Assembly: GCA_017533915.1 (NCBI GenBank)
Contig: JAFWHX010000003.1
Location: 1 to 64,000, forward strand
Length of the DNA stretch: 64,000 nt
Source: Eubacterium sp.
Lineage (GTDB): Bacteria > Bacillota > Clostridia > Peptostreptococcales > Anaerovoracaceae
Direction of reading: 5' to 3'
Shown here: one piece after another, positions 68 through 17,937 of the stretch
How the letters are laid out: each line of letters starts with the position of its first letter
Position numbering within the stretch: position 1 is the stretch's first letter
Notes under the pieces: model-generated
Seen by the model: the letters and a program-made list of their open reading frames with translations, nothing else
Database searches by the model: none
What the model was told of the DNA's origin: nothing
Position numbers and translations under genes: made by a program

Positions 68-105
68 AAAGGGATGTGGATGACATAAGTCATCCACATC
101 CCTTT
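68..105 (-). terminator. Terminator of the original tRNA-Arg locus
   Basis: A perfect 14-bp stem (71-84 with 89-102, 4-nt loop) is followed on the minus strand by a T-rich run. It lies just 3' of the duplicated tRNA-Arg end at 103-141. It is probably the chromosomal terminator of the tRNA-Arg gene, separated from it by the island insertion. Confidence 0.7.
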
Positions 106-141
106 GGTGCACCAGAGGCGATTCGAACACCCGACGCACGG
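103..141 (-). repeat. Left attachment site: 39-bp duplicate of tRNA-Arg 3' end
   Basis: The 39 bases are identical to 17860-17898, which form the T arm, acceptor 3' strand and CCA of the intact tRNA-Arg(CCT). No tRNA 5' half is present here, so this is a displaced 3' end, the usual scar of integration into a tRNA gene. It marks the left boundary of the 17.8-kb island. Confidence 0.88.
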
Positions 142-1898: not shown

Positions 1899-2060
1899 AG
1901 ACGCGGCTAACGGAATCGGGGTGCGAGTCCCCGGCTGACGAGCAGCCGTAACTTATGAGCCCGAGCGTCAAAGCCCTGACCCATATCAAGTCGGAAGACG
2001 AGGACCGCGTTTTGGATTGCAGGCGCCCGTATATCTGCCGTGCATTTCTTTGTTTTACTG
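1899..2060 (+). ncRNA. Cobalamin-riboswitch-like leader 1 (upstream of agrA)
   Basis: From 1900 the order of conserved boxes fits a cobalamin riboswitch: CGGCTAACGGAAT, GGGGTGCGAGTCCCC, a CAGCCGTAA core, and a B12-box-like AGTCGGAAGACGAGG at 1989-2003. It aligns well with the leader at 5221-5354. It fills the gap between the ATPase and agrA, so it could govern the quorum-sensing genes. No closing P1 stem was found, and a clear terminator or RBS-masking stem was not seen, so it may be degenerate. 2061-2203 holds nothing else recognisable. Confidence 0.6.
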
Positions 2061-2203
2061 CTAGACTTTATTGGCATATATTCTAAACAAGGATACTGAT
2101 ATCGAAGCGACTGCATCATGCGGCCGTTTTTTTATGCGGCGAAGCAGCCATCAAAGCCATATTTGGTTGCGACTATCAAAACCTAGAAGGAACTGTAGTA
2201 AAT

Positions 2204-2986
2204 ATGACAACAACACTAAACGTATTAATCGTAGAAGATGATTATAACGATTTGAAGCATGCAAAGAGAATCGTAGAAATGAACTTTCCGGACGTGAAAG
2301 TGTATGACGCTGGCAATAGAAAAGAGGCTCTTAATGAACTTGCAAAGCATGATATGAATCTTTTGCTGCTGGATGTAAGACTTCCGGATGGTACGGGATT
2401 CGATGTGGCGAGGGACATCAGGAATATCCCACAGTATCGGTTTGTGCATATTGTATATATAACCGGTGAAGACTACGATCCGCTGGAGACATATAACACT
2501 TATCACTGTTATTCGTTTATCAGCAAGCCATATACAGAGGACACTATGCTGGAGCAGCTCGGCCCATTGCTAGATGAACTGAGACAAGAAAAATCTGAAA
2601 ACCGTGTTCCGGTAAGGCGCGAGGCGAGAGCATTTTCCACGACAAAAGGTGAAATAATAATACCTGTCAATGATATATTATATGCCGAGCTAAGATTTCG
2701 TAATATGGTTATCCATACAAGAAAGGGCGAGTACCAAACCAAGAGAATGTCGCTCAAGTCGTTTAAAGAGTATATAAATGATCCCGGTTTCTTCATCTGT
2801 CATGAATCTTTTATAGTTAATATGAGGAAGGTATACATGATAGAAAAAGGGGACAAGAGATCTTATGTCGCGTTATTTAATAACAGCGATGATAAAGGAT
2901 GTATTGTCAGTCAGAAAAGATATAAGGGAATGAAAGAACTGCTTGATAAAAAGGCAGCAAAAATGAAAGCCGGAGGGAGCAAATGA
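2204..2986 (+). CDS. agrA: LytTR-family response regulator, AgrA-like
   Basis: This 260-residue regulator has an N-terminal receiver domain (1-125, acidic EDD at 11-13, phosphoacceptor Asp57 in LLLLDVRL, conserved Lys in ISKPYT). A C-terminal LytTR DNA-binding domain spans about 145-250 and includes the FFICHESFIVNM signature. It should be phosphorylated by the AgrC-like kinase, whose start codon overlaps its stop (ATGA at 2983), so the two are co-translated. A cobalamin-riboswitch-like leader precedes it. The agr assignment rests on the adjacent agrC, agrD-like and agrB genes. Confidence 0.85.
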   Translation: MTTTLNVLIVEDDYNDLKHAKRIVEMNFPDVKVYDAGNRKEALNELAKHDMNLLLLDVRLPDGTGFDVARDIRNIPQYRFVHIVYITGEDYDPLETYNTYHCYSFISKPYTEDTMLEQLGPLLDELRQEKSENRVPVRREARAFSTTKGEIIIPVNDILYAELRFRNMVIHTRKGEYQTKRMSLKSFKEYINDPGFFICHESFIVNMRKVYMIEKGDKRSYVALFNNSDDKGCIVSQKRYKGMKELLDKKAAKMKAGGSK

Positions 2987-4212
2987 TAGACTGGATAGAT
3001 GTGGCGGGTTCACTGTTTGAGAACACGATGATCTATATCGTTGCTATGATTCTTGCAAAGAATGAAAAGATAAGCGCCAGGATGGTCATATGCTGGCTTA
3101 TCGCGGTTCCGGTCATTTCGATCGCCAATTCATTCAATATACCGTACCATGCGATCTTTACGGTTGCAGCAATGACGGCGTTCATATGTGCTTTTTTCAG
3201 AAACAAGATCATCGATACAGCGGCGGATGTGATAATGGGATTTGCATATGTATTATTCTATCAGATCATATTCAGTGTTGTGCTAATGCTTTTCATGCAG
3301 TGGTTCAAATTAGACGAGAACATCGCGCATTTCATTTTGCTCGCGATAATGATCCCGGTCGGGATACTGCTTTTTAGAAGCGATCTGGTCCAGAGGCTAC
3401 TGTCCACATACTACTATGAGAACAGGGAGCCGCTTTTCGGCATACTGGCAGGTTTTCTGGTAATATATGCTCTGCTGATCAATGTGCTGGCTCCGGAGGA
3501 TACTGCGTATAGCAATAAAAAGCTGGAAGTGCTGCTCCTGATCGGAGTATATGTTATCTTAAACGGTGTATTCATCTACAACCTGTACATCAAAAGGCGT
3601 ACTGAGAAGGAATTGTTCAAATCACATGAATATGAAGACTACCTTCACGAGCTTATGAATCAGATGAAAAGCCGCGAGCATGAGTACAAGAATCATATAC
3701 AGCACATAATATCTATTTCCGAGGACGATGAAATAGATGATGTGAGGAAACGGATCCATGAATATGCCGACCAGATTGTGGATCAGGACAGCGTTACGAC
3801 GAAGGGCGCGATAACAGACAATATAGCAGCCTCCATATTCCTGTATCAGGCAAAGAAGCGGGCGGAGAATGAGGAAGTACACTTCGAGTATTATATAGAT
3901 AAACCATTCCCGGAGTACAGAATACCTGAAAAGGATCTGGTCGAGCTGGTTTCCAATGCTATCAACAATGCTTTTGAGGCTGCCGCGGATTTGGAGCCGG
4001 AAAAGAGAAGCATCTTTATTCTGTTCCAGAAAGATCATATAGAAGTGATCAATACCATGGCATGTCTGGAAGATGTGGAGTATGGCGTGAGTACCAAGGG
4101 ACGAGAAAGAGGGTACGGACGGCTTAACATGAAACGAATAGCTGATAAGTACGGAATCAAGCTCAGTACGCAGATTGAAGAAAACAGATTCATAGTCGTC
4201 ATGGATTTCTAA
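2983..4212 (+). CDS. agrC: AgrC-like membrane histidine kinase
   Basis: The 409-residue sensor has six or seven predicted hydrophobic segments in residues 1-210 and a dimerisation/phosphoacceptor region with His238 in EYKNHIQHI. The C-terminal GHKL ATPase domain has an N box NAINNAFEAA near 330 and a glycine-rich RGYGRLNM near 385. This is the AgrC (HPK10-type) arrangement; the expected ligand is the peptide made from the AgrD-like ORF at 4280-4399. It overlaps agrA by four bases. A strong hairpin follows the stop. Confidence 0.85.
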   Translation: MIDWIDVAGSLFENTMIYIVAMILAKNEKISARMVICWLIAVPVISIANSFNIPYHAIFTVAAMTAFICAFFRNKIIDTAADVIMGFAYVLFYQIIFSVVLMLFMQWFKLDENIAHFILLAIMIPVGILLFRSDLVQRLLSTYYYENREPLFGILAGFLVIYALLINVLAPEDTAYSNKKLEVLLLIGVYVILNGVFIYNLYIKRRTEKELFKSHEYEDYLHELMNQMKSREHEYKNHIQHIISISEDDEIDDVRKRIHEYADQIVDQDSVTTKGAITDNIAASIFLYQAKKRAENEEVHFEYYIDKPFPEYRIPEKDLVELVSNAINNAFEAAADLEPEKRSIFILFQKDHIEVINTMACLEDVEYGVSTKGRERGYGRLNMKRIADKYGIKLSTQIEENRFIVVMDF

Positions 4213-4233
4213 GAAACAGACATAAAATAAAAC

Positions 4234-4268
4234 GGAGGTCGGACCAGTAATGATCCGGCCTCCAATTT
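4234..4268. terminator. Bidirectional terminator between agrC and agrD
   Basis: A GC-rich stem (4234-4246 with 4251-4263) is followed by AATTTTT. It separates the convergent ends of agrC (+) and the AgrD-like ORF (-). Confidence 0.75.
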
Positions 4269-4279
4269 TTGATGCAAGT

Positions 4280-4399
4280 TTACTTCAGTAATTCTTCCGG
4301 GCATTCCACTTCATGCCATAAAACACTGGATGCCGAAGATGCAGATGCTTCTGCCACATTCATAAACAAACATGAGATGAGATTTAAGATAGTTTTCAT
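4280..4399 (-). CDS. agrD: AgrD-like autoinducer propeptide (39 aa)
   Basis: This short ORF encodes an amphipathic N-terminal leader (MKTILNLISCLFMNVAEA), a small Ala/Ser-rich linker, a predicted peptide core around SSVLWHEVE, and an acidic recognition tail (CPEELLK). That order and the P-E-E-L tail match AgrD-type cyclic (thio)lactone precursors. The ring nucleophile is uncertain: the only nearby Cys is in the tail, so a Ser (lactone ring) or that Cys could act. A strong GGAGGG site lies 5-10 bases before the ATG. It sits between agrC and agrB but on the opposite strand, an unusual arrangement. Its expected processing partner is AgrB at 4621. Confidence 0.75.
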   Translation of the reverse strand: MKTILNLISCLFMNVAEASASSASSVLWHEVECPEELLK

Positions 4400-4620
4400 G
4401 ATATCCCTCCTTACTCATCAAACCTCTTGTTATACCCCGTAGCTGTCATTTTCATGACCGCCACTGCCAATGTAAGCCATGTGTCATTAGCGTTCAATAT
4501 CTATGCCGCGATTTCACATTATTTGGACGATAAACACGGATATGTGACAATACGCCATATATAACGCAAAGGTGCCAAAACCATTGAAATTGGGGGGGTG
4601 CAAGCGATAATATATAAAAT

Positions 4621-5202
4621 ATGGGGAGAATTATCGAGTGCATGGCGGCGTCACATCCAGATGATCCGCTTGCGGAAGTGAAGATCAGATACGCCTGGGA
4701 AGTCATAAAGTCCGAGTCAGTAAAGTGCATGATCATGCTTGTCATATTCATGCTGCTTCACGAGGTCGAGCTTTATATATTGGGACTGCTGTTCCTGCTT
4801 CCTTTAAGGGCAGTATCAGGGGGACTTCACTTCAGGCAAGAATCAGCCTGTCTGATATTCTCCCTTATGACAATGGTATTGGGGTTAATAGTTTTTCCTG
4901 AGTATATTCCGTGTGGAACGTGGATATACTCCATTGTGGTAGCTGCAGCAGCGGTGATAATGATCATATCACCTGTCGTGAGCCCGAAAAAGCCGATCAA
5001 ATCGATCGATAAGTGGAAGCGTATGAAGTTTCTGTCTATATCGCTCGTAATGATCGAATCGGTGATCATAATTGTCCTGATAAGGATCGGCAACAATTAT
5101 GGATATCCTATGTTCTGGATTATGGCTATACAGGCGCTGCAACTGATTCCGGGAGCCATGATATATGGCTTCGGAAAGAAAACGATAAAGGGAAACAATT
5201 AA
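4621..5202 (+). CDS. agrB: AgrB-family autoinducer-processing membrane protease
   Basis: This 193-residue polytopic membrane protein has the AgrB signature RAVSGGLHF with catalytic His70 and Cys77. The His-Cys spacing of seven equals that of staphylococcal AgrB (His77/Cys84). It should cleave the C-terminal tail of the AgrD-like precursor and help form the ring. The start at 4621 has no good RBS; Met8 (4642), behind GGGGAGA at 4623, is an alternative. It is divergent from agrD and lies upstream of the second riboswitch. Confidence 0.85.
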   Translation: MGRIIECMAASHPDDPLAEVKIRYAWEVIKSESVKCMIMLVIFMLLHEVELYILGLLFLLPLRAVSGGLHFRQESACLIFSLMTMVLGLIVFPEYIPCGTWIYSIVVAAAAVIMIISPVVSPKKPIKSIDKWKRMKFLSISLVMIESVIIIVLIRIGNNYGYPMFWIMAIQALQLIPGAMIYGFGKKTIKGNN

Positions 5203-5220
5203 AGAGATTATTTAGTTTAA

Positions 5221-5354
5221 TACTGGGATGCGGCTAACGGAATGGGGTGAAGATCCCCGCTGTTCAGCAACCGTGAAGCTCCGGCAATAGCCGGGAGATC
5301 AGTCGGGAGACGAGTCGTGTCCGGATACTAAGCACTCTCGGATTAGCCGCAGTA
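5221..5354 (+). ncRNA. Cobalamin-riboswitch-like leader 2
   Basis: A closing stem pairs GCGGCTAA (5229-5236) with TTAGCCGC (5343-5350), extended by TACT/AGTA. Inside are GGAAT, GGGGTGAAGATCCCC, a GCTGTTCAGCAACCGTGA core, and a B12-box-like AGTCGGGAGACGAGTC at 5301-5316. The order and spacing fit the cobalamin aptamer family. It precedes the operon of two large secreted proteins, which implies corrinoid-controlled expression. Confidence 0.75.
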
Positions 5355-5373
5355 TCTGAATATGTTTTAGTAC

Positions 5374-5409
5374 ATGGCTTTCCCGGAGTGTTGGGGGAAG
5401 TCATTTTTG
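5374..5409 (+). terminator. Riboswitch expression-platform terminator
   Basis: An imperfect stem pairs 5374-5384 with 5393-5404 and is followed by TTTTTGATT. It lies 20 bases past the aptamer and 70 bases before the start codon, the expected place for ligand-induced termination. Confidence 0.65.
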
Positions 5410-5482
5410 ATTGTTCGCCTTGTAATCATGACGACAATGTAAGTTATCACTTTTTAAGTTGTTTGATGAAGGAGGAAAGGAA

Positions 5483-7591
5483 ATGCAAAGACTTCATCGA
5501 TCCGGCAGAATAATGATCAGCTTGTTGTTTGCACTGACCATGGTGTTCTGCTGTGTATGCGCTGATTCCTATGCGACGGGTCATAACTCGCTTACAGGAT
5601 TCAGCGCCGGCGTCGCGAGCATCACTGTTTCCGGTGGAACAGTAGCCCAGGAAGTGACGCCTGTAATCTCCGGTGATCAGTATACGTACAACATTACTAT
5701 CACCGAAGACTGGAATTCATTGAATTCCGACAAGAAGATAACTATAACTTTTGCGAAAGATCTTACGAATTATCCAAATTGCGAGATCTCGACGAATCAA
5801 CCAGGTGTGTGGCCGTTCAGAAAGAAGAAAGTGAGAGACGGAGCGACATTAGTATATGAGGCTACGATAGATCAAAACAATCTGAATGGATCAACGGTAG
5901 CCTATGTGTACTATGATCTTGAGAATCATGTTACGTCTTATAAGACATATGTCTTTAACGTGACGATCAACGGCGCACTCAATCCGAGAATTCTGAGCAA
6001 CGATACTTTTATGAGTATTGGAGATCCGGATTATCAGCAGACAGAGCCGGAATGTGATATGAAAATTGCAAATGGACATGTAAATATCAGTAGTTGCGAT
6101 TATACAATTACGTACAACGGGACTCGCAGCCAGTACTATCCGGAAACGTTTGCTCTTTATGTTGACAAGAATTCCACAGTCACCAGGCCAAGTGAATACA
6201 GTAGCGTAATTTCTTTGACTAACGAAACTGTAGGGACTCAGTACAGGAGCTATGTAGTAAATCACACTGCGCTTGCAAAACTGGTGGTTAGCAAAGGCGG
6301 TAATTCAGTAGGCGTTGAAGTTCCGGCGCCGCACCCTGAAAGTGCTACAGGGTCAGGGCCGGCTCCGAAATCTGTAGTCAGCTATCTGCCTATTGGGCAA
6401 TTTGCTACAGGATCAGGATGGGGCACATCTGGCGGCTCTGGTACTACTGCTACAAAGTTTGTAGGGAAGTCTGCTCCAGAGAGCACAGGCGTTTCCCTTG
6501 GAGCACTCGGCGGATACATCGAGTTCGAATTCCAGAATGCGATTCAGAATTATGCAGGTAACCCTTATGGAGTTGATTTCGTAGTATATGGTAATGCCTT
6601 CCATGGGAATCCGGAAGCTGGTGCTGTTCAGGTTTCTGCTGATGGATTGACTTGGTATGAGTTGGCTGGCTCCAAGTATTATGAAGACGGATTCACGACA
6701 TCAGGCGTGACGTCACCTAAGTTGTATAAAGGAACACAGAGAAATGCGATCGCAAAGTATCAGCTTTCTAACAGCACCCTTACGGCAGCTATCTATGATG
6801 GTTCAACAGCTCTTTATCCGTTTACATCGTTTGGTTCAGAAGGATGGTGGCCGCTTACTAGCGAAAGCTATCCTATGGGGACTCATACGAACACGAATGC
6901 GAATATCTCAGTCACACATTCCAATACAGCTATGGAAATGACTGGAGTTACAGCAATCGAAGATTCTGATGACAATGCTGAATATGGGTATGGATATGCA
7001 GATGTAACTCCGAATGGAAGCTACAGTGCCTATGGAAACCCTGAAAATCCGTACATCCCGTATACAAATGGTAAGACTGGAGGAGACGGATTTGATCTTG
7101 ACTGGGCTACAGATATTAGCACAGGAATGCCAGAGGACATTTCAAATCTAAGTATAAAGTTTGTTAGGGTTTACTCCTCAGTTCTTCATATTCAACCTCC
7201 GTTTGGTGAAACTTCGGCAGAAGTAACAGGTGTGTTTGTAACTCCGCAAGTATCTGGTAGGACCGACGTTGGGAGAACATCGTTGCCAGATGTAAGTATT
7301 GGAAATACAAATATAAAACAATTAATCAATACTGGGAATCCAGAAATAGTTGAGACAATTAATAATGTCCATGTTGTGTATCTTAGCAAGAACAGTTATT
7401 CAATTCATCAAGAGGATTCTGATGGGAATATTCTAGTTCATGGAAGTCAGATTTCTGTAGGCGGATCCAATAATGTTTGGATTAATAACGAAAGTTCGTC
7501 ACAAACCGAGTACGAAGGAAATGATTTTGTTCGTATTGTGATTCAAGAAGGAAGTAAGGCACCATACATAATACTTCTGGTACTTGAGTAA
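5483..7591 (+). CDS. Large secreted beta-sandwich surface protein
   Basis: The protein is 702 residues from the ATG at 5483, chosen because of the GGAGGAAAGG site just before it. It has a signal peptide (about 1-30, ending near DSYATG) and two N-terminal beta-rich repeats (about 40-280). The central domain contains FVVYGNAFHGNPEAGAVQVS, and a later stretch has GGDGFDLDWATD and KFVRVYSSV. I recall similar motifs in surface proteins linked to cobalamin loci of Bacteroidota, but I cannot verify this here. No sortase motif or lipobox is present, so it is secreted or non-covalently bound. It lies directly under the cobalamin-riboswitch-like leader and abuts the next gene. Confidence 0.8.
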   Translation: MQRLHRSGRIMISLLFALTMVFCCVCADSYATGHNSLTGFSAGVASITVSGGTVAQEVTPVISGDQYTYNITITEDWNSLNSDKKITITFAKDLTNYPNCEISTNQPGVWPFRKKKVRDGATLVYEATIDQNNLNGSTVAYVYYDLENHVTSYKTYVFNVTINGALNPRILSNDTFMSIGDPDYQQTEPECDMKIANGHVNISSCDYTITYNGTRSQYYPETFALYVDKNSTVTRPSEYSSVISLTNETVGTQYRSYVVNHTALAKLVVSKGGNSVGVEVPAPHPESATGSGPAPKSVVSYLPIGQFATGSGWGTSGGSGTTATKFVGKSAPESTGVSLGALGGYIEFEFQNAIQNYAGNPYGVDFVVYGNAFHGNPEAGAVQVSADGLTWYELAGSKYYEDGFTTSGVTSPKLYKGTQRNAIAKYQLSNSTLTAAIYDGSTALYPFTSFGSEGWWPLTSESYPMGTHTNTNANISVTHSNTAMEMTGVTAIEDSDDNAEYGYGYADVTPNGSYSAYGNPENPYIPYTNGKTGGDGFDLDWATDISTGMPEDISNLSIKFVRVYSSVLHIQPPFGETSAEVTGVFVTPQVSGRTDVGRTSLPDVSIGNTNIKQLINTGNPEIVETINNVHVVYLSKNSYSIHQEDSDGNILVHGSQISVGGSNNVWINNESSSQTEYEGNDFVRIVIQEGSKAPYIILLVLE

Positions 7592-10500
7592 ATGAGCGCT
7601 ACATGGAAGCGTATTCCCTTTCTGGCAATAACCATAATCACTTTAGCTTTTTCTTCGTTGCAGTTGGTGCATGCAGACGAGGGGGAGAAGATAATAGATT
7701 TGGAATACACATTGTCAGGAGAGGAGTGTCATTTAGAAATAGAACAAGCCACAAAGATAGGTTCATATACTGGTGGAACTACAACTGGTAATGTATATCT
7801 AATGGAATTGCCGACAGGTGCGTCAATAACGAATATTACAACAAGTTGGGCTACTGTTAAGACAAGAGGGGTTACGACAGGAAGAACGTGGGACAATGCA
7901 GATCCTAATAAGTATACGGACGAATCTTATTATGCAAAGAATGATGAATTTGTCGCCCCGGCATCTACTCAAAGGACAGGTTTCCCTGCGTCTTTTACTG
8001 GGATATCATTTGATGAATCTGGATATCAATTGCCTACGGAGAATGTGAAAGGATTTTGCATTCAAGTAGAAACAGAAGATATGGTTACGCAACATCGTTT
8101 CTTTATACAGATTTCTACGGCTGGACAGACTACAGATAAAAGTCAGATTAAAGCCTTGATAGATTCTGTTCCAAAATCTGGCTATTACACAAACGATGAC
8201 AATTGGAACGGTAAACTATCAAGTCAGAATGGATTCTGGAATGACTTACAGGTATTTGTGAACGACAGGCTTGTTGCAGTCTATGAGGACGATTCATTAT
8301 CACAAGAGTATATTGATTCTCAGATTGAGTCATTAACTACAGATTTAGCTGCTGGAATTTCCAATCTTATTCCAGATACGCAGGTTCTCCCTGTAAAGAT
8401 CCATAATGCACTGGAGACATACAAGTCGCTTTCTGATGAGGATAAAGCCAAGTATTCTGCGAAGTCGGTACAGAAATATGAGAACGCCAGAAGTGCTGCC
8501 GTTGCTGCATATGATACGTTATTTGACAGCGAAGGCAATGCCATTGTGGAGACAAATAAGGCAGAACGTCAGGAAGAGATCGATGCTGTGGCCGATGCTC
8601 TTGAGGCCGCATATAATGACCTGCTTGGTAAGACTTCAGAGGCAGATATCGAGCGCTGGCTTGCTGCTTCCGAGTGGGTAGCTTCTCAGACGATAGTTGA
8701 GGATCATTTCACAGCTGAAAGTGTTAATGATCTTAATACGGCGATCCAGGCTGCTAAGGCGATCGAAGATGCACACGATGATCCACATGACATCCTTGCA
8801 TCCAAGACTGAATATCAGGCATATACAGACGCAGTTGCCGGAGCACTCTGTGCATACTATCAGCTTGAAAACGCCGGCCCTATCAGTGTACATGTAAGGA
8901 TCGTAGACAACTATGGTATTACACATCCTGAATATGCCATTGATGATTCTGGTGATTCTGATATGGCTCACTTTAACGGTGACGTAACGTTGACAAATAA
9001 TAAGACTATTCAGGGACTGTTCCTTGAAAATGAAGGAGGACTGTACACAACTCCAAAGACTGCATATAAGCCAAAAGCAGGGGTGGCAGGCATAGATGAT
9101 TCCTGCCAGCATGCACATACGTATGTATACGTAAACGGCAAACTTGCAATACCGGCGCTTCAGGCAGACCCTACGTCTCTGGCAAGGATGAACCCATCGG
9201 CGGGACATATGGATGTATATTCAGGGGAAGATTTAAGCGCAGGACCAGTTTACTTTGATCATGTGCACGAGAACATTGAGGAAAGATTCCCGGTTCTTAA
9301 GAATGCGCTCCATGATGGAGATGACGTAATAATACTGAGGACCAGTGCTCCTTTCTTCCATTTTTCTGCAACTGGTGCGATTGACAGATGCATTTCAGAT
9401 ACTGATAATGGGGCATATCTTTCAGCATACTATGATTCGTTCGGCTTCCTGAATATCGATGACTCTGAATTTACAGATGGTGCGATTGAGACTAAGCCTG
9501 GCGAAGGCATCGAGATATCTGTATCACAGAGTCAGTCGGATGTGATCACGGGTGATCCTGATGATGCAGAAGAAGCAAAAGAAATAAGTGTACTTGCCAG
9601 CGAACCGTTTGAGACTAAAGAAGCTGCCGAAAAGGCTTCTTCATTTACAGCACTTACCGCGAAGGATGGCGATGACACCGTTGATGTTGTTACAGACGCA
9701 GACGGAAAAGCTGAATTCAGTCTTGCAAAGGAAGGCTGGTACAGGATCGCTGTGATGGGCATAAAGGGAGAACTGAGAGTTCAGCAGTCATACCTTGTTG
9801 ATGGCAACAGTATCTTACCAGGTTATTATCCGGACTTTAAGGTATCAGACTACATGCTTGTACATATTACACTTGATGATGAACGCAAAGATGTTGCTGA
9901 TGCAAAGACTGCTGCTGAAACTGCAAAGACTGCTGCTGAAACTGCAAAAGCAACATATGAGGAAAGCAAGGAAGCCGCTGATGCTGCTGCGGCAACGCCT
10001 GGCGATGAAGCAGTAGCTGCTGCGGACAAGGCTCTTGAAGATGCGGAGACTGCAGCAGAAAAGGCAGAAGAGGCAAAGGCGGCTGCTGACGCATATCTTG
10101 CGAAAGTCCAGGCACTTGAAGCGAAGAAAGATCAAATGTCAGATGTCAATAAAGCTGCTATCGAAGCTGAACTCACAAACGCGGAGAAGATGGCATCTGA
10201 TGCTGAGGTCGCCAAGGATGCTGCAGATGCGGAAGTAAAGAAAGCCGAGGAAGCTCAGGATAAAGCTGTGACAAAGGCAGCGCTTAAAGAATGTCAGGAA
10301 GAGATAGCTCAGCTGAAACAGGATATTGCAGACAAGCAGGATGAGATCGATGATCTGAAGACGCAGAATACTGCTAATCAGACCAGGATCAATGAGCTCA
10401 ATGGTCAGATCGAAGCTGCCCAGGCAGAGATAAGTGCTCTTCAGGAAAGCGGAGAAGCTGACGAAGAAACGATCAATTCTCTTAATGAGCAGATCGTAGC

Positions 10501-11131
10501 CGCGCAGGGTGAGATCGATACCCTTACACAGCAGATCACAGATAACCAGACAGAGATCAATACTCTTAAAGAAGAGGTGGCAGCAACGAAGGGCGAGATC
10601 GAATCTCTGACGACCCTTGCCTCTGTAAAGAAGGACGCTATCAGCAGGATAAACAAATATCTTGACGACAATAAGAGCAACATCCTTCAGGAGGATTCTG
10701 ACAGCGCAGAGCTTGCCGTACTCAAGGCTATAATGGCTATCAAAGATGCTTCCGCAGAGGAAGAGATAACCAAAGCAGCTAATGACGCCATAGCCAAGCT
10801 TGATGAAAAGATCGCTGTAAAGAAGGCTGTTGATACTGCCAAAGCGCAGAAGGTCAAAGGCCTTACAGTCAAGGTAAAGAAGAATAAAGCGACTGTCAAA
10901 TGGAAGAAGAATGCCAAGGTGACAGGCTACGAAGTATTCCGTTCACTCAAGAAGAAGAGCGGATACAAGAAGATCGCTACAGTAAAGAAAAATGCCACTG
11001 TAAAATACGTGAACAAGAAGCTCAAGAAGGGCAAGAAGTACTTCTATAAAGTACGTACGTTCACAAAGATCAACGGTAAGACATACTATGGCAAATACTC
11101 AGCTGTTAAAGCGACCAGGAAGATAAAGTAG
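7592..11131 (+). CDS. Giant secreted protein: DUF4430-like domain, coiled coil, Fn3 tail
   Basis: The 1179-residue protein has a signal peptide (1-28), an N-terminal beta domain, and FIVAR-like helical segments (about 250-440). A domain at about 445-600 contains YVYVNGKLA and LHDGDDVIILR, resembling the transcobalamin C-terminal-like DUF4430 fold. It continues with a Cna-B-like beta domain (about 655-760), a long Ala/Glu/Lys coiled coil (about 770-1010), and a lysine-rich Fn3 module at the C terminus. That basic module may bind wall polymers; no LPXTG is present. The ATG directly follows the stop of the upstream gene (TAAATG) without a clear RBS, so translation is probably coupled. Confidence 0.8.
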   Translation: MSATWKRIPFLAITIITLAFSSLQLVHADEGEKIIDLEYTLSGEECHLEIEQATKIGSYTGGTTTGNVYLMELPTGASITNITTSWATVKTRGVTTGRTWDNADPNKYTDESYYAKNDEFVAPASTQRTGFPASFTGISFDESGYQLPTENVKGFCIQVETEDMVTQHRFFIQISTAGQTTDKSQIKALIDSVPKSGYYTNDDNWNGKLSSQNGFWNDLQVFVNDRLVAVYEDDSLSQEYIDSQIESLTTDLAAGISNLIPDTQVLPVKIHNALETYKSLSDEDKAKYSAKSVQKYENARSAAVAAYDTLFDSEGNAIVETNKAERQEEIDAVADALEAAYNDLLGKTSEADIERWLAASEWVASQTIVEDHFTAESVNDLNTAIQAAKAIEDAHDDPHDILASKTEYQAYTDAVAGALCAYYQLENAGPISVHVRIVDNYGITHPEYAIDDSGDSDMAHFNGDVTLTNNKTIQGLFLENEGGLYTTPKTAYKPKAGVAGIDDSCQHAHTYVYVNGKLAIPALQADPTSLARMNPSAGHMDVYSGEDLSAGPVYFDHVHENIEERFPVLKNALHDGDDVIILRTSAPFFHFSATGAIDRCISDTDNGAYLSAYYDSFGFLNIDDSEFTDGAIETKPGEGIEISVSQSQSDVITGDPDDAEEAKEISVLASEPFETKEAAEKASSFTALTAKDGDDTVDVVTDADGKAEFSLAKEGWYRIAVMGIKGELRVQQSYLVDGNSILPGYYPDFKVSDYMLVHITLDDERKDVADAKTAAETAKTAAETAKATYEESKEAADAAAATPGDEAVAAADKALEDAETAAEKAEEAKAAADAYLAKVQALEAKKDQMSDVNKAAIEAELTNAEKMASDAEVAKDAADAEVKKAEEAQDKAVTKAALKECQEEIAQLKQDIADKQDEIDDLKTQNTANQTRINELNGQIEAAQAEISALQESGEADEETINSLNEQIVAAQGEIDTLTQQITDNQTEINTLKEEVAATKGEIESLTTLASVKKDAISRINKYLDDNKSNILQEDSDSAELAVLKAIMAIKDASAEEEITKAANDAIAKLDEKIAVKKAVDTAKAQKVKGLTVKVKKNKATVKWKKNAKVTGYEVFRSLKKKSGYKKIATVKKNATVKYVNKKLKKGKKYFYKVRTFTKINGKTYYGKYSAVKATRKIK

Positions 11132-11162
11132 AACATTTTCTTGCTTCTTTAATGAGGATCGG

Positions 11163-11184
11163 GGCCTGCATTTATATGCAGGCC
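11163..11184 (+). terminator. Hairpin after the surface-protein operon
   Basis: A 9-bp perfect stem (GGCCTGCAT with ATGCAGGCC) lies 30 bases after the stop. The following tract is pyrimidine-rich but not a clean T run, so termination may be partial. Confidence 0.5.
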
Positions 11185-11275
11185 TCAGGTCTTCTTCCCC
11201 GGGTGATCTACTGGAGCATCAGGGCAAGAAGATAACAACGAGAGGTATCTAAATAACTGAAGGCAGGTGGATATC

Positions 11276-13813
11276 GTGAATTTATTTATCAGGAGGACCA
11301 TATCGGTTTTGATGAGCTTGATGCTGATCTTTTGTCTGATTCCGTATCATTCTTCTGCGGAAACAAAAGGACCGGAAGACGACGGCGCAACTGTAAGAGT
11401 ATATTTCACACTGAGCGACGACAGTGAGTTCTTTACAGGCAGAGACGCGGACAGCAGAGTCATGGCAAGAGTACCGATAGACGTACCATACGTCGACCTT
11501 CAGGAGTACGGACTCGAGGCATATAACCGCTATGAGGCAAAGAGCTTCGAGGATGGAGGAACGTACATAACGCCATATGTCCTTGTAGAGAGGCCTACGC
11601 TTCTCATGTGCTTCCTTAAAGCCCTGAGCCAGTATTATCTGGGACGAGAGATCACTGCGGCAGACATAGGCACACATGCGATAGAAACAAGCGGCGGGGC
11701 TACCAGTCTTTATCTTCTCTGGTTCTTCGGCCACTACTACAACTTCATGTACTTTGTGAATCATCAGTACCCTCTGATGGCAAAAGGCTGGGGTGCTACA
11801 GCTGATTACATTCTCCTTGAAGACGGAGATGAGATAGACGTTGGTATGTTCACAGACCTCAGGTTCAACCAGTATGGCGGCTTTGCATACTTTGATTCCG
11901 GGAATGAAAACATTACTGCAGGAGACAGCCTGGACCTTCTTCTGTATCTTACCAAATCGCAGGAATCCGGAGGAAGTGACTACAACGGGCCAATGTATAA
12001 AGAACCAATTCGTGTGAGCAGCGATTACGGCAGGACATGGCAGACAAAGGTATATACGACTGATAAGCAGGGACAGTTCACGGCTACATTTGACGAGGCA
12101 GGCGTGTATTATGTCTCCGCCGGGCCTGTGTTCAAGAACCAGCCGTACAGTTCTCTTCAGTGTATAGCTCCTCCTATCTGTGTGGTAGAGGTGAGGCCTG
12201 CTCCTGTGACAGGCGGAAGCGTACAGGCGGAAGGAAACAGTTTCAGTGTTTCATGGGCTGAGTCGCCGGGAGCAGAAGCATATGAAGTAAAGTATAAGGC
12301 GAGCACGGGGAGCATGAAGACGGTCACGACCGAAGAAACAAGCATATCGATCACTGACGCAGATTCGGAAGACGCAGCATTTACCGTGCGCCCTTATGTT
12401 ACAAGCAAGTATGTAGCGCTTGGAGAAGAGTACAAGAAGCTTCGCGGAAATGAAGTCACGATAACATATGATCCGAATGCGGACGCAGAGGCAGCGCTTG
12501 CGAACGCAAAGACTGCTGCCCGGGAAGAGCTGACCACATATAAGAACAGTAAGGATCTGTCCCTTTACAGACCGCAGCAGCAGAACGAACTGGCAGAAAT
12601 ACTTTCCAGCGGATGCCATGCAATAGATTCGGCTGTTGATGAAGCGGGAGTTACGACTGCATTAAGTGCGGCAAAGAGAAGCATGGATGCTGTAAAAACT
12701 GACGCAGAGCTTACCAGAGAGGAACAGGAAGGAGCGCTTCAGAGCGCGATCGCTTCAGCCTGTTCAGAACTGGAAACATATGTAGACCCTGCCTTATACA
12801 GGGATAATGAGAGGCAGCTGATAGCTGATATTATCATTGAGGGCAAGACGAACATTCAGCAGGCACAAGACCTTGCCGGAGTAGCAAATGCACTTGCTGC
12901 TGCAGAAGCCCTGCTTGACGATGTCAAGACAGATGCAGAATATACCGCAGAGGAACAGGGACAGGGCGGTGAAGATGATCCTGACGCTAAAGCTCTTGCC
13001 GAGGCGAAAGCCAATGCCAAGACAGAACTGTCAGAGTACGCAGCAACTAAAGACCCTGAGCTGTACCGTGACGAGCAGAAGGAAGAACTTACCCAGGCTT
13101 TGGAGCAGGGCAACGCTGCGATAGATGCTGCTCAGGCAATTGAAGACGTTGCTCAGGCACTTACTGATGCCAAGGCAGCTCTTGATGCAGTCAAGACAGA
13201 TGAGCAGATGAAGCAAGAAGAGCAGGAAGCTGCGAGACAGCTGGAAGAGGCGAAGAACAACGCCGAGCTTGAGCTTGGCAGCTACATGGCTCCGGAAGAG
13301 TACAGAGAAGCCGAGAAGGCTTTGCTCCTTGATATACTTACAACTGGGAGAGCGGCTATCGACGCGGCAGAGACAAAAGAAGAAGTGACGGCTTTGCTCG
13401 CGGAGTACAAAGGAAAGATAGACGCGCTCAAGACAGATGCCGAGTACACCCGGGAAGAAGAGGAAGCTCGTAAGAAGCAGGAAGAAGCTGAGCAGAAAGC
13501 CAAGGCAGCTGCGATAAAGAAGGCCAAAGCTGCGAAGACAACTGTCAAGGTAAAGGCTTTGACGAAGCATAAAGCTAAGGTGACGTGGAAGAAGGTCTTC
13601 GGCGTGACCGGGTACAAGGTCTACCGTGCAACCAAGAAGGCCGGTAAGTATAAGTTGGTCAAGACAGTGAAGAAGGCTAAGACCTTAAAGTACACTGACA
13701 AGAAACTAAAGAAGGGTAAGAAGTACTTCTACAAGGTCAGGACCTACACCAGGATCGATGGCAAGAACTACCTGGGCAAGTGGTCGAAGGTAAGGAAGAT
13801 AAGAGTTAAGTGA
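11276..13813 (+). CDS. Secreted protein: transcobalamin-like domain, helical repeats, Fn3 tail
   Basis: The protein is about 845 residues. The GTG at 11276 sits behind AGGTGG; the GTG at 11267 is an alternative. It has a signal peptide (to about residue 30). A domain at about 40-200 has LYLLWFFGHYYNFMYFVNHQ followed by ADYILLEDGDEIDVGMF, a pattern I associate with DUF4430/transcobalamin-like domains. An Fn3-like domain follows (about 310-380). Four helical repeats of about 75 residues come next (about 405-740), each with a D-P-x-L-Y-R or similar entry and ending in D-A-V-K-T-D. The tail is the same lysine-rich Fn3 module as in the preceding gene. It is likely exported and wall-associated. Confidence 0.8.
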   Translation: MNLFIRRTISVLMSLMLIFCLIPYHSSAETKGPEDDGATVRVYFTLSDDSEFFTGRDADSRVMARVPIDVPYVDLQEYGLEAYNRYEAKSFEDGGTYITPYVLVERPTLLMCFLKALSQYYLGREITAADIGTHAIETSGGATSLYLLWFFGHYYNFMYFVNHQYPLMAKGWGATADYILLEDGDEIDVGMFTDLRFNQYGGFAYFDSGNENITAGDSLDLLLYLTKSQESGGSDYNGPMYKEPIRVSSDYGRTWQTKVYTTDKQGQFTATFDEAGVYYVSAGPVFKNQPYSSLQCIAPPICVVEVRPAPVTGGSVQAEGNSFSVSWAESPGAEAYEVKYKASTGSMKTVTTEETSISITDADSEDAAFTVRPYVTSKYVALGEEYKKLRGNEVTITYDPNADAEAALANAKTAAREELTTYKNSKDLSLYRPQQQNELAEILSSGCHAIDSAVDEAGVTTALSAAKRSMDAVKTDAELTREEQEGALQSAIASACSELETYVDPALYRDNERQLIADIIIEGKTNIQQAQDLAGVANALAAAEALLDDVKTDAEYTAEEQGQGGEDDPDAKALAEAKANAKTELSEYAATKDPELYRDEQKEELTQALEQGNAAIDAAQAIEDVAQALTDAKAALDAVKTDEQMKQEEQEAARQLEEAKNNAELELGSYMAPEEYREAEKALLLDILTTGRAAIDAAETKEEVTALLAEYKGKIDALKTDAEYTREEEEARKKQEEAEQKAKAAAIKKAKAAKTTVKVKALTKHKAKVTWKKVFGVTGYKVYRATKKAGKYKLVKTVKKAKTLKYTDKKLKKGKKYFYKVRTYTRIDGKNYLGKWSKVRKIRVK

Positions 13814-13821
13814 GGCACAAC

Positions 13822-14070
13822 ATGACTAAGCAATATCCTTACACAAGAGAAGAACTGCTCGACTACCTGCTGAAGAAGCGTGACGAGCTCGGGAGGAAGC
13901 CGACCAAGAAGGACATACCTGAGAGGATGCGCCCGTATTACCGCGTGTACTTCGGTAAGTGGTGCTATGCGCTTGAGATAGCGGGGATCGTCATACCTTC
14001 GCAGCATACGCTGGAGAGGAGAGCAAGGCATAAGAACAGGTATAAGATGCTGCGGGAAGGCAGAAAGTGA
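13822..14070 (+). CDS. Small HEAR (homing-endonuclease-associated repeat) protein
   Basis: An 82-residue basic protein (from ATG 13822) carries one homing-endonuclease-associated repeat: YTREELLDYLLKKRDELG, then RKPTKKDIP, then YFGKWCYALEIAGI. This repeat is normally a DNA-binding accessory to HNH nucleases; no nuclease motif is present here. A GTG at 13810 would overlap the stop of the previous gene. The role may be DNA binding or regulation within the island. Confidence 0.65.
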   Translation: MTKQYPYTREELLDYLLKKRDELGRKPTKKDIPERMRPYYRVYFGKWCYALEIAGIVIPSQHTLERRARHKNRYKMLREGRK

Positions 14071-14276: not shown

Positions 14277-14543
14277 CTACTTAGTTGATTCGTAATGTGA
14301 TCCACATTCAACTATTTCCAGAGCCTCGTCAACTATGCGGAAAACGATTCGATTCTTTTCGTCGATATGAACACTCCAATAACCAGAGAGAGATCCTAAC
14401 AATGGCTCCGGTTTACCAATGCAATTATATCCATTTCTATCTATACTTTTCAGTAATTTATTGATCTTTTTCAGATATTTTTTATCCTGTTTCTGCCAGT
14501 AAAGATAGTCTTCCCACGCTTCATCGTGCCATAACTTTATCAT
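14277..14543 (-). CDS. Txe/YoeB-type mRNA-interferase toxin
   Basis: This 88-residue protein fits the YoeB/Txe family in length and in motifs. W..YLYWQKQDKK is at the N terminus, GKPEPLLGSLSGYWSVHID lies mid-protein with the catalytic-type Glu, and the family-typical RIVFR and C-terminal His in SHYES follow. Such toxins cleave mRNA at the ribosome. Its ATG overlaps the antitoxin stop by one base (TAATG), giving the usual antitoxin-first operon. Confidence 0.88.
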   Translation of the reverse strand: MIKLWHDEAWEDYLYWQKQDKKYLKKINKLLKSIDRNGYNCIGKPEPLLGSLSGYWSVHIDEKNRIVFRIVDEALEIVECGSHYESTK

Positions 14544-14797
14544 TAATCCGCCTCAATTATATCGTGTTCATGTACATTTTTACCGGCCTCCATTTCCGCA
14601 ATACGCTTTTCGAGCATAGCAATATGCTCGTCACTATAGAATGGATCAACAGAGACCTCGAAGGGTATTCTTCTCTCATTTGCGACTTTTGTTAGAAATA
14701 TACTGATCGCAGCCGACATGGTCATGCCCATGGCAGCGCAGGCGCTTTCTGCTTTCGTTTTAACGCCATCATCTATTCTAAAACTAACCTGTGCCAT
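14543..14797 (-). CDS. RelB/DinJ-family antitoxin
   Basis: An 84-residue antitoxin starts at the ATG at 14797 behind AGGAGGAG. The N terminus (MAQVSFRIDDGVKTKAE) and MGMTMSAAISIFL form the ribbon-helix-helix DNA-binding region of RelB/DinJ proteins. The acidic C terminus should wrap the toxin. It probably represses its own promoter. Together with the toxin it could stabilise the island. Confidence 0.88.
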   Translation of the reverse strand: MAQVSFRIDDGVKTKAESACAAMGMTMSAAISIFLTKVANERRIPFEVSVDPFYSDEHIAMLEKRIAEMEAGKNVHEHDIIEAD

Positions 14798-14861
14798 AAC
14801 TCTTACTCCTCCTTGTACACATTTATTGTATAGCATATGCTTTTCGTTGTCAAGCAACTAA

Positions 14862-16451: not shown

Positions 16452-16554
16452 ATCACCATCCGCAGAAAAAGCAAGAGGTTGGAAGAAGGTTTTTTGAAAA
16501 ATTTTTTGTAAGGGCAGAAGGGTGTTATCCGGCCTTTATGAAGGAGGCAGTTAC

Positions 16555-17730
16555 ATGAACAAGACAAATTATGTTCTTCACGGCAAGCCTTGCTACAGGA
16601 TACGGGAGACGATAGGCAAGAAGATCAATGATAAGGGGATCATAGTGCCTATCCGTAAGACCTTTATCGGTAAGAATAAGAAGGAGGCTGAGCAGAAAAG
16701 GAAGGAATATATCGAGAAGAAAGCTGTAGGTATCGACGGCAGCAATCTGTATTTCGGCATAGTTGCAGAGAACTGGCTGTATAATTTCATGCTGAACGAT
16801 CCGACTCTCCAGGACAGGACCAAGGAAACATATATGTGCAGATGGAACTGTTATGTGAGGAATACGGCTTTGTACACCATGCCGATAGAGGAGATCACCA
16901 TCGACACGCTCCAGTCGTTCTACAACAATCTGGGCGCCCCGGACTCATCGCTCCAGACGATCGACAAGGTAATGAAGCGGTTCTACAGGTACCTCGAGAT
17001 GGAGGGCATGGCCAGGAACATCGCGACCATGACGGTCGTGCCGAAGAAAAGACGCGGACTGGACAGGAAGGGAAGGCCGCCTGAAGTCTGGACTGATGAT
17101 GAGATAAAGAAGATCCTCGGTTCTTTTGATCTTGCAGGAAAGAGATTCCGCCACAAGTTTCTTGTCATACTTGCGTATTATACGGGCTGTCGGATAAGCG
17201 AGATCCTTGCTATCAAGAAGAGCGATATCAAGGACGGGATCCTCACTATCAACAAACAGATAATAAAGCGCGCAATATTCAAACGAGGCCAGAAAACCGT
17301 GTATGAGATGGGTATCGATACTCTTAAGACAGATTCATCTTACCGCGAGCTTCCTCTGAATGACGCGGTGTTAGAGGCCCTGGAGGAGCATCTGAAGTGG
17401 CAGGAGAAGGACAAGAAGCTGAACGGATACAGGACCGATTATCTTTTCACTACCAACACCGGAGAGCTGTATGACAGGCATAATATCGAACACTCGCTGG
17501 ACAAGTACTACGACAAGCTAGGTATCACGCACAGAGGACTCCATACATATCGCAGAACGTTCTGTACCAACCTGTGCCGTGCCGGGGTTCCGATCCAGGT
17601 AGCCTCCAGGCTGATGGGCCACGCAGGCATAACAGATACCGCAAGATATTATGTAAATGTGCCTTCGAAAGAGAAGATGGACGCGGTAAAAGCGCTTGAA
17701 AAGTGGACTGACGAAGTTAGGTCCTCATGA
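16555..17730 (+). CDS. int: Tyrosine integrase of the tRNA-Arg island
   Basis: The 391-residue site-specific recombinase starts at ATG 16555 behind GGAGG. The N-terminal arm-binding region (NYVLHGKPCYRIRETIG) leads to a SAM-like core-binding domain (about 80-165). The catalytic domain has Arg in TGCRISE (near 212), H-x-x-R in GLHTYRRTF (near 332), His in MGHAGITD (near 356) and the nucleophile Tyr in ARYYV (near 365). All five catalytic positions look intact. It lies 130 bases from the tRNA-Arg it targets. Its promoter carries a LexA box. Confidence 0.93.
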   Translation: MNKTNYVLHGKPCYRIRETIGKKINDKGIIVPIRKTFIGKNKKEAEQKRKEYIEKKAVGIDGSNLYFGIVAENWLYNFMLNDPTLQDRTKETYMCRWNCYVRNTALYTMPIEEITIDTLQSFYNNLGAPDSSLQTIDKVMKRFYRYLEMEGMARNIATMTVVPKKRRGLDRKGRPPEVWTDDEIKKILGSFDLAGKRFRHKFLVILAYYTGCRISEILAIKKSDIKDGILTINKQIIKRAIFKRGQKTVYEMGIDTLKTDSSYRELPLNDAVLEALEEHLKWQEKDKKLNGYRTDYLFTTNTGELYDRHNIEHSLDKYYDKLGITHRGLHTYRRTFCTNLCRAGVPIQVASRLMGHAGITDTARYYVNVPSKEKMDAVKALEKWTDEVRSS

Positions 17731-17830: not shown

Positions 17831-17861
17831 AAACGCTGTAACCATTGCAATTACAGCGTTT
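17831..17861 (-). terminator. Island-encoded terminator of tRNA-Arg
   Basis: A perfect 11-bp stem (17831-17841 with 17851-17861) is followed on the minus strand by TTTTATTTTTCGG. It replaces the native terminator now stranded at 68-105. Confidence 0.75.
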
Positions 17862-17898
17862 TGGTGCACCAGAGGCGATTCGAACACCCGACGCACGG
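17860..17898 (-). repeat. Right attachment site (39-bp repeat within tRNA-Arg)
   Basis: Identical to 103-141. It covers the 3' third of the intact tRNA-Arg and marks the right boundary of the island. Confidence 0.88.
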
Positions 17899-17937
17899 TT
17901 TAGGAAACCGACGCTCTATCCCCTGAGCTACTGGTGC
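17865..17937 (-). tRNA. tRNA-Arg(CCT)
   Basis: The 73-nt cloverleaf has a GCACCAG/CTGGTGC acceptor, D arm GCTC...GAGC, anticodon loop TTCCTAA (CCT) and T arm TTCGAAT. An encoded CCA extends it to 17862. Its 3' part (17862-17898) is the island-borne half that restores the tRNA after integration. Confidence 0.93.

Follow-up and report, generated by a model that had tools for sequence, protein, structure and literature searches.

A divergent sub-class of cobalamin-clan aptamers on an agr-bearing integrative island of a Eubacterium genome

What, if anything, connects a quorum-sensing gene set to the two riboswitch-like leaders that lie on either side of it? The question is raised by the first 64,000 nucleotides of contig JAFWHX010000003.1 (Eubacterium sp., Anaerovoracaceae; assembly GCA_017533915.1; hereafter the window), part of one contig in a 2.19-Mb genome, where an island carries an agr set, genes for three large secreted proteins (proteins 1–3), and two leaders, one upstream of agrA (leader 1) and one downstream of agrB (leader 2). 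An earlier note had proposed that corrinoid level and cell density together set the production of these surface proteins. The observation behind that proposal holds, and its interpretation proved half right and is partly supported; the firm result is a divergent sub-class of aptamers, to which both leaders belong, and its regulon of mostly secreted-protein genes.

A divergent sub-class of cobalamin-clan aptamers

At the Rfam gathering threshold neither leader was reported, and a permissive search placed both below the cut-offs of the cobalamin models (window 1912–1999, RF00174, 24.1 bits against 31.5, E 0.004; window 5210–5369, RF01482, 30.0 bits against 50, E 0.015), because both belong to a divergent sub-class. 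The genome has six canonical cobalamin (Cbl) riboswitches above the cut-off; leader 1 and a place on contig C17 were the two that fell short of it. Alignment showed the C17 place to have a divergent core in common with both island leaders, and the same core was seen in the leader upstream of a protein 1 homologue in a genus mate. These four sequences made up a first model, R1. A second, R2, consisted of 26 distinct related places and held no window sequence, its members having been gathered and aligned with R1, which contained the window leaders.

R2 scored leader 2 (5228–5321) at 81.8 bits and leader 1 (1901–2011) at 50.5 bits, with whole-genome E-values of 1.2e-21 and 8.3e-12 that are rough because the calibration was shortened. 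Seven canonical aptamers in the same search reached 14.6–28.4 bits and two intermediates 43.3 (L116) and 42.0 (L117), both of which pass the Rfam cut-off, L117 being canonical by eye; two further canonical aptamers (L004, L005) gave no R2 match at E ≤ 1. Eight sub-class places were found by R2 in this genome at 50.5–90.4 bits, five of them in its training set, and the next match, at 28.2 bits, was canonical. Chance resemblance of the leaders is ruled out by these scores from a window-free model, and their identity as ordinary canonical Cbl riboswitches by the scores of the canonical aptamers. The description of the leaders in the earlier note as cobalamin-riboswitch-like is thus upheld as regards clan membership, by R2, but not by the Rfam cut-offs.

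With a threshold of at least 44 bits, 33 distinct sub-class places were collected (34 rows, one place standing in two loci; G084:C122 was left out), including the eight of this genome, and four of them reached the Rfam cut-off (L096:8509, L109:10419, L110:1366, and L116:1290). Across 32 aligned copies three stretches of the core, CTAACGGAA, GCAACCGT, and CGGGAGACGAG, vary little or not at all, and the sequence of P3 varies yet pairs in 92.6% of cells. A model-fitted alignment of 38 distinct rows, about five of them canonical or intermediate, had 94.6% of cells paired and 119 both-side changes as compared to a shuffled mean of 27.1, and an unfitted MAFFT alignment of the 32 copies had 88.7% paired and 75 both-side changes as compared to 23.7. 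A P3–P6 core with covarying helices places the sub-class in the cobalamin clan in the wider sense. In many copies a hairpin downstream of the aptamer has a loop complementary to L5. This L5–L13 kissing loop is paired in 84.4% of cells (32 copies), with a double change in four of its five pairs and five such cells in total. The L13 word CTGAGGYAG occurs within 45 nt in 17 of the 33 copies and in 1 of 9900 shuffled stretches, counts that are not independent because the copies are related. L5 itself reads UCUCAG in 21 of 32 copies.

A wide spread of the sub-class was rejected, as it was present at E ≤ 1e-6 in three of 391 genomes of a class-level sample, this one included and all within the family of the host. 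Among 247 genomes of a family-level sample, 14 had a match of at least 44 bits and 66 a match at E ≤ 0.01, the weaker ones being a mixture in which canonical and sub-class aptamers are unsorted. Viral copies were likewise discounted: the 80 listed of 119 viral stretches with a sub-class 14-mer gave no R1 match (E ≤ 0.1). Neither this sub-class nor a link between a riboswitch and agr was described among the listed matches of a literature search.

Genes behind the sub-class and its probable ligand

Genes behind the 33 copies were classified by reading of the open reading frame (ORF) listing and by hydropathy, with the L112 tandem counted twice. A secreted-protein or lipoprotein gene stands behind 26 copies, many of the products being 600–2000 aa long; at L105, L109, L113, and a few others that gene is separated from the aptamer by a small ORF or a transposase-like gene. 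Two copies precede an energy-coupling factor (ECF) transporter, and five have something else or nothing clear behind them (leader 1, with agrA; L011:8409; L092; L103; L106). At L011 (8409–8491, + strand) the sub-class leader precedes a 96-aa ORF, and genes resembling nitrogenase-type reductases by eye lie on the opposite strand. DUF4430 was over cut-off in four of ten proteins tested from sub-class operons (L093, L097, L101, and L105) and below it in L111, and squalene-cyclase-like segments in L112 fell just below cut-offs. Behind the L094 copy are a periplasmic-binding lipoprotein, a FecCD permease, and an ATPase; the several relatives of the lipoprotein and permease include BtuF and BtuC, none of them above its NCBIfam cut-off.

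Since the sub-class precedes mostly secreted-protein genes (some with DUF4430), plus a BtuFCD-like ATP-binding cassette transporter, and ECF transporters, a corrinoid is its likely ligand. A corrinoid is only one candidate substrate of the L114 ECF transporter, as its S component matches riboflavin- and folate-type models. The best argument for corrinoid sensing is that the protein 3 family stands behind both aptamer types. The N-terminal domain of protein 3 recurs at 37–55% identity over ∼280 aa in L095, L119, L120, L121, L122, and L123. Relatives lie behind sub-class leaders in L095 and L097 (L119 being the same place as L097), and the relative in L123 lies behind a canonical cobalamin riboswitch (86.4 bits).

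Canonical and sub-class aptamers were also observed in tandem within one leader in two genus mates, at L095 (1269–1462 and 1756–1845, + strand, 293 nt apart) and, in the opposite order, at L101 (9405–9538 and 8968–9148, – strand, 256 nt apart). At L112 (+ strand) sub-class aptamers occupy 218–308 and 1236–1328, and a canonical-looking one, unreported by Rfam, lies between them (∼610–900, by eye).

Such spacing within a single leader would suit a different ligand, the sub-class sensing some other corrinoid or a tetrapyrrole rather than ordinary cobalamin and the tandem copies combining two signals. The common L5 sequence of the sub-class differs from the UCCCG given as the L5 consensus in PMC10653944, and as base-off corrinoid tails are modelled as clashing with L5–L13 in PMC9600662, an altered L5 might alter selectivity. 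However, the genes downstream fit general corrinoid acquisition, and the L114 S component, with its riboflavin- and folate-type matches, points to no particular corrinoid. Tandem riboswitch aptamers for one ligand exist too, and a ligand other than ordinary cobalamin is regarded as improbable.

As for the island's own products, proteins 1–3 each have a hydrophobic signal-like N terminus, judged by hydropathy rather than by a signal-peptide predictor. A DUF4430 character of these proteins was discarded, as Pfam listed no such domain in any of the three at E ≤ 10. The probable role of the secreted proteins at the cell surface is to capture corrinoids or material that bears them. An alternative is that they are adhesins or coat proteins that bind no corrinoid, which would then serve only as an environmental cue. 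Large size, fn3 domains, a coiled coil, the lack of DUF4430, and the failure of proteins 1 and 3 to match any solved B12-binding protein are all consistent with this alternative, whereas relatives of protein 3 keep company with DUF4430 genes, one in the L097 operon and another, 33% identical, on a Vescimonas plasmid that also has a terpene-cyclase-like gene beside it. A role without corrinoid binding is considered rather unlikely.

Three further observations concern protein 3. The Vescimonas fastidiosa relative (L253, NZ_AP023417.1, 82678–101472) neighbors DUF4430 and terpene cyclase/mutase genes, and Rfam finds no cobalamin riboswitch in that stretch or in the 28 kb before it. In the window, protein 3 is followed by a small HNH_repeat protein (13810–14070, + strand). 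On contig C4 of the same genome (L093), a sub-class leader precedes a 795-aa gene resembling that of protein 3, and a similar-looking 91-aa ORF comes after it.

The agr set and the integrative island

The claim that the locus is one tRNA-borne island was borne out. It spans 17.8 kb between the copies of a 46-nt direct repeat, the right one overlapping the 3′ end of a tRNA-Arg (17862–17937); with the tyrosine integrase, attachment repeats and a tRNA target identify an integrative element (Table 1). Family models also recognized an IstB/DnaC-like ATPase and an AAA_14/DUF4143 ATPase on the island, and G+C content is 38–43% in agrA, agrC, agrD, and the AAA ATPase as compared to 48% right of the island. 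A YoeB/RelB-type toxin–antitoxin pair occupies window 14277–14857 (– strand). Searches with protein 1, protein 3, or AgrB found no near copy of the island; the integrase was not searched for. Conservation of the gene order in relatives found no support, in that the island AgrB matched nothing at E ≤ 1e-5 in 16 genus mates and its closest match among 349 family genomes was 37% identical. The Pfam AgrB model matched in 30 of 247 family genomes, this one included. Phage records contained two weak AgrC relatives (21% and 26%), and viral contigs no relative of AgrB or protein 3.

AgrA, AgrB, AgrC, and AgrD are all supported by hidden Markov models, so the set between the two leaders is complete, as previously described. 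It is not an agrBDCA operon, because agrD lies on the minus strand; agrA and agrC are upstream of agrB.

Table 1. Coordinates of features on the island (window positions)
Feature	Position	Strand	Basis
Left attachment-type repeat, copy of the tRNA-Arg 3′ end	96–141		46-nt repeat, 93% identical to 17853–17898
Leader 1, variant corrinoid-type aptamer, P3–P6 core, upstream of agrA	about 1901–2010	+	RF00174 24.1 bits; R2 50.5 bits
Leader 1 predicted expression platform, terminator-like hairpin (∼2105–2130) and competing antiterminator	2011–2130	+	Folds; terminator-like site 2111–2123
agrA-type response regulator, receiver and LytTR domains	2204–2986	+	PF00072, PF04397
agrC-type histidine kinase, GHKL	2983–4212	+	PF14501
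Strong hairpin between convergent agrC and agrD	4229–4268		−21.2 kcal/mol
agrD autoinducer-peptide precursor, 39 aa, divergent from agrB	4280–4399	–	TIGR04223, 46.8 bits (cut-off 19)
Promoter-like site before agrB, TTGAAA-16-GATAAT	4584–4611	+	10/12 consensus matches
agrB peptide-processing membrane protease	4621–5202	+	PF04647, 91 bits
Leader 2, variant corrinoid-type aptamer, start 24 nt past the stop codon of agrB	about 5227–5321	+	RF01482 30.0 bits; R2 81.8 bits
Leader 2 P13-type hairpin; same strand forms the predicted antiterminator	5322–5365	+	Folds
Leader 2 intrinsic terminator	5374–5404	+	−16.5 kcal/mol, then T run; terminator scan
Secreted protein 1, 702 aa	5483–7591	+	C-terminal half common to sub-class-operon proteins (L111, L097, others)
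Secreted protein 2, 1179 aa	7592–11131	+	Coiled coil; fn3-like domain at the C terminus
Terminator-like hairpin between secreted proteins 2 and 3	11161–11186	+	Terminator scan
Secreted protein 3, 848 aa	11267–13813	+	N-terminal domain common to corrinoid-leader-operon proteins
Tyrosine integrase of the island	16522–17730	+	PF00589
Right attachment-type repeat inside tRNA-Arg	17853–17898		Repeat and tRNA call

The region after the leader 2 aptamer can also fold into an antiterminator (−28.0 kcal/mol) that competes with the intrinsic terminator, and leader 1 has a terminator and a competing antiterminator as well (folds). Antiterminator/terminator logic is described for a repressing corrinoid riboswitch in PMC10653944. 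By such logic leader 2 would be an OFF switch: without corrinoid, the post-aptamer strand would pair as the antiterminator and permit read-through into the genes of proteins 1 and 2, and with corrinoid the P13 hairpin would form and free the terminator. Because leader 2 follows agrB by only 24 nt and no promoter was recognized between them, agrB, leader 2, and the genes of proteins 1 and 2 are probably transcribed together from the agrB promoter. The promoter-like site before agrB is the last one upstream of leader 2 on the + strand, and the best upstream promoter score of leader 2 is the third lowest of the 33 copies, the two lower ones belonging to the second tandem members L112:1236 and L095:1756. 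The earlier note had leader 2 driving two secreted proteins, with a third following. Three large ORFs with signal-like N termini are indeed present and have relatives behind corrinoid-type switches. A terminator-like hairpin separates the third from the first two and may make protein 3 a separate unit.

Under this arrangement, cell density, acting through agr, would set initiation at the agrB promoter and corrinoid scarcity would set read-through, while leader 1 would let AgrA and AgrC be made when corrinoid is scarce. An imperfect 22-nt inverted repeat (4498–4563) lies just upstream of the agrB promoter-like site, on which AgrA might act. The position of leader 2 inside the apparent agrB transcript lends support to joint control by corrinoid and density, which we infer; the link to agr is suggestive through leader 2, weak through leader 1, and seen on one island only. 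The reading of the island as a mobile surface-protein cassette that responds to corrinoid and brings its own agr set is given about an even chance. A more specific version, in which the sub-class is a distinct corrinoid-riboswitch specificity class, seen only in Hornefia (the probable genus of the host) and its relatives, that makes quorum sensing conditional on corrinoid scarcity, with leader 1 gating AgrA and AgrC and leader 2 gating the surface genes within the agrB transcript such that capture occurs only in crowded, corrinoid-starved cells, is judged unlikely.

Several results weigh against a corrinoid-responsive cassette under agr control. Downstream of the leader 1 aptamer, no complement to L5 exceeds 4 nt. 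The L13 loop of leader 2 differs from the consensus, and the longest L5 complement in that leader, 7 nt with one G-U pair, overlaps the P13 stem. AgrA-type direct repeats of at least 8 nt are absent from the agrB–agrD gap (4395–4625). Promoter-like sites in the region occur near chance (26 found against a shuffled mean of 22.1), and only 10 of the 33 copies have a promoter score reached by ≤5% of their own shuffles. Searches of proteins 1–3 against Pfam and NCBIfam gave no family of B12-binding proteins, and no B12-binding protein was among the Protein Data Bank sequence matches of proteins 1 and 3 (E ≤ 1; protein 2 was not tried). The protein 3 relatives L120, L121, and L122 lack an aptamer by R1 or Rfam. 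Finally, in the family sample, comparison of 36 other agrB places with 95 RF00174 places (28 genomes) gave one pair within 10 kb; the 36 exclude the island's own place and two below the AgrB cut-off, one of the latter being the sole place in its genome. As a separate observation, the leader of a protein-1/protein-3 operon at L120 (5600–6020), which matches neither R1 nor Rfam, is possibly a further divergent aptamer.

The single family pair within 10 kb involves an agrB without recognizable partners, and none of the other family genomes searched showed the combination present on the island. In the class sample, 75 agr loci hand-picked among the matches listed were scanned with a pattern that recovers 11 of 13 known positives, yielding one clear match (L268) and one doubtful match (L308); Rfam, run on 16 of the 75, reported L268 only. 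There, in a genome of another family, a canonical Cbl riboswitch (8270–8431, – strand, 76 bits) lies 397 nt ahead of an agrA-agrC-agrD-agrB set on the same strand, whose components other than agrB were named by eye, and terminator-like hairpins and a promoter-like site (by eye) stand between aptamer and agr set. L268 is a looser parallel, though the closest, and by rough estimate its frequency is about what chance gives. The search for agr genes near Cbl riboswitches in other genomes thus gave one partnerless agrB and one distant locus, and pairing of the two as a general clostridial theme was rejected.

The rarity of this pairing bears on a competing explanation, in which agr is merely co-mobilized cargo, leader 2 is a working switch, and leader 1 is a decaying aptamer that a rearrangement orphaned in front of agrA, with no integration of the two signals. 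Agr and the sub-class are unlinked elsewhere in the family sample; leader 1 lacks L5/L13 complementarity and scores 31 bits below leader 2. By our reading, leader 1 is the sole copy of the 33 to precede a regulator, and there are other copies, next to transposase-like genes, that look like orphans (L092, L113). However, leader 1 has kept a 6-bp P3 with a sequence of its own and almost all of the invariant bases of the core, together with its terminator and competing antiterminator, and leader 2 is placed inside the apparent agrB transcript. Co-mobilization without integration is a serious possibility, of somewhat less than even probability, and the corrinoid-responsive cassette with its own agr set is retained as the working interpretation.

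Significance and relation to known systems

As the sub-class is mostly missed by standard annotation, it points to a regulon in gut Clostridia, made up of giant surface proteins, that has seldom been noticed. Its tandem copies beside canonical switches open riboswitch selectivity among natural corrinoids to direct testing. If the leaders around agr work, a vitamin riboswitch would gate quorum sensing on a transferable element.

By structure the sub-class belongs to the cobalamin clan, and it appears to work like a corrinoid riboswitch. In common with Rfam clan CL00101 (RF00174, RF01482) are the P3-P4-P5-P6 core, a GGAA junction, the B12-box-like AGTCGGGAGAC, a terminator platform, and, across the sub-class as a whole, a putative L5–L13 kissing loop. 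The sub-class differs in core exchanges that compensate each other (CTG/CAG replaced by CCG/CGG in most copies, and an inner P3 pair changed from GC to CG), in CTAACGGAA and GACGAG, and in its own prevailing L5. Functional outliers of the clan exist, PMC11260477 proposing a Class IIb variant in Mycobacterium. The island's own proteins, unlike those of the DUF4430/terpene-cyclase-like surface operons of Clostridia, have no DUF4430 match, but relatives of protein 3 occur in such operons. As compared to agr (AgrBDCA), all four components are present, whereas agrD stands alone on the opposite strand, agrB is apart from agrAC and apparently heads a surface-protein transcript, and both agr units have riboswitch-type leaders. 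Riboswitch-controlled surface capture of corrinoids is known in Bacteroides, at the BtuG/BtuH loci (PMC6143338, PMC8941943), and is less known for Firmicutes according to PMC8941943. The island resembles these loci in riboswitch-type control of surface proteins and, putatively, in corrinoid capture. It differs in that proteins 1 and 3 have no sequence match to solved chains (E ≤ 1; protein 2 not tried), and in combining a Gram-positive host, a sub-class aptamer, and an agr set on an integrative element.

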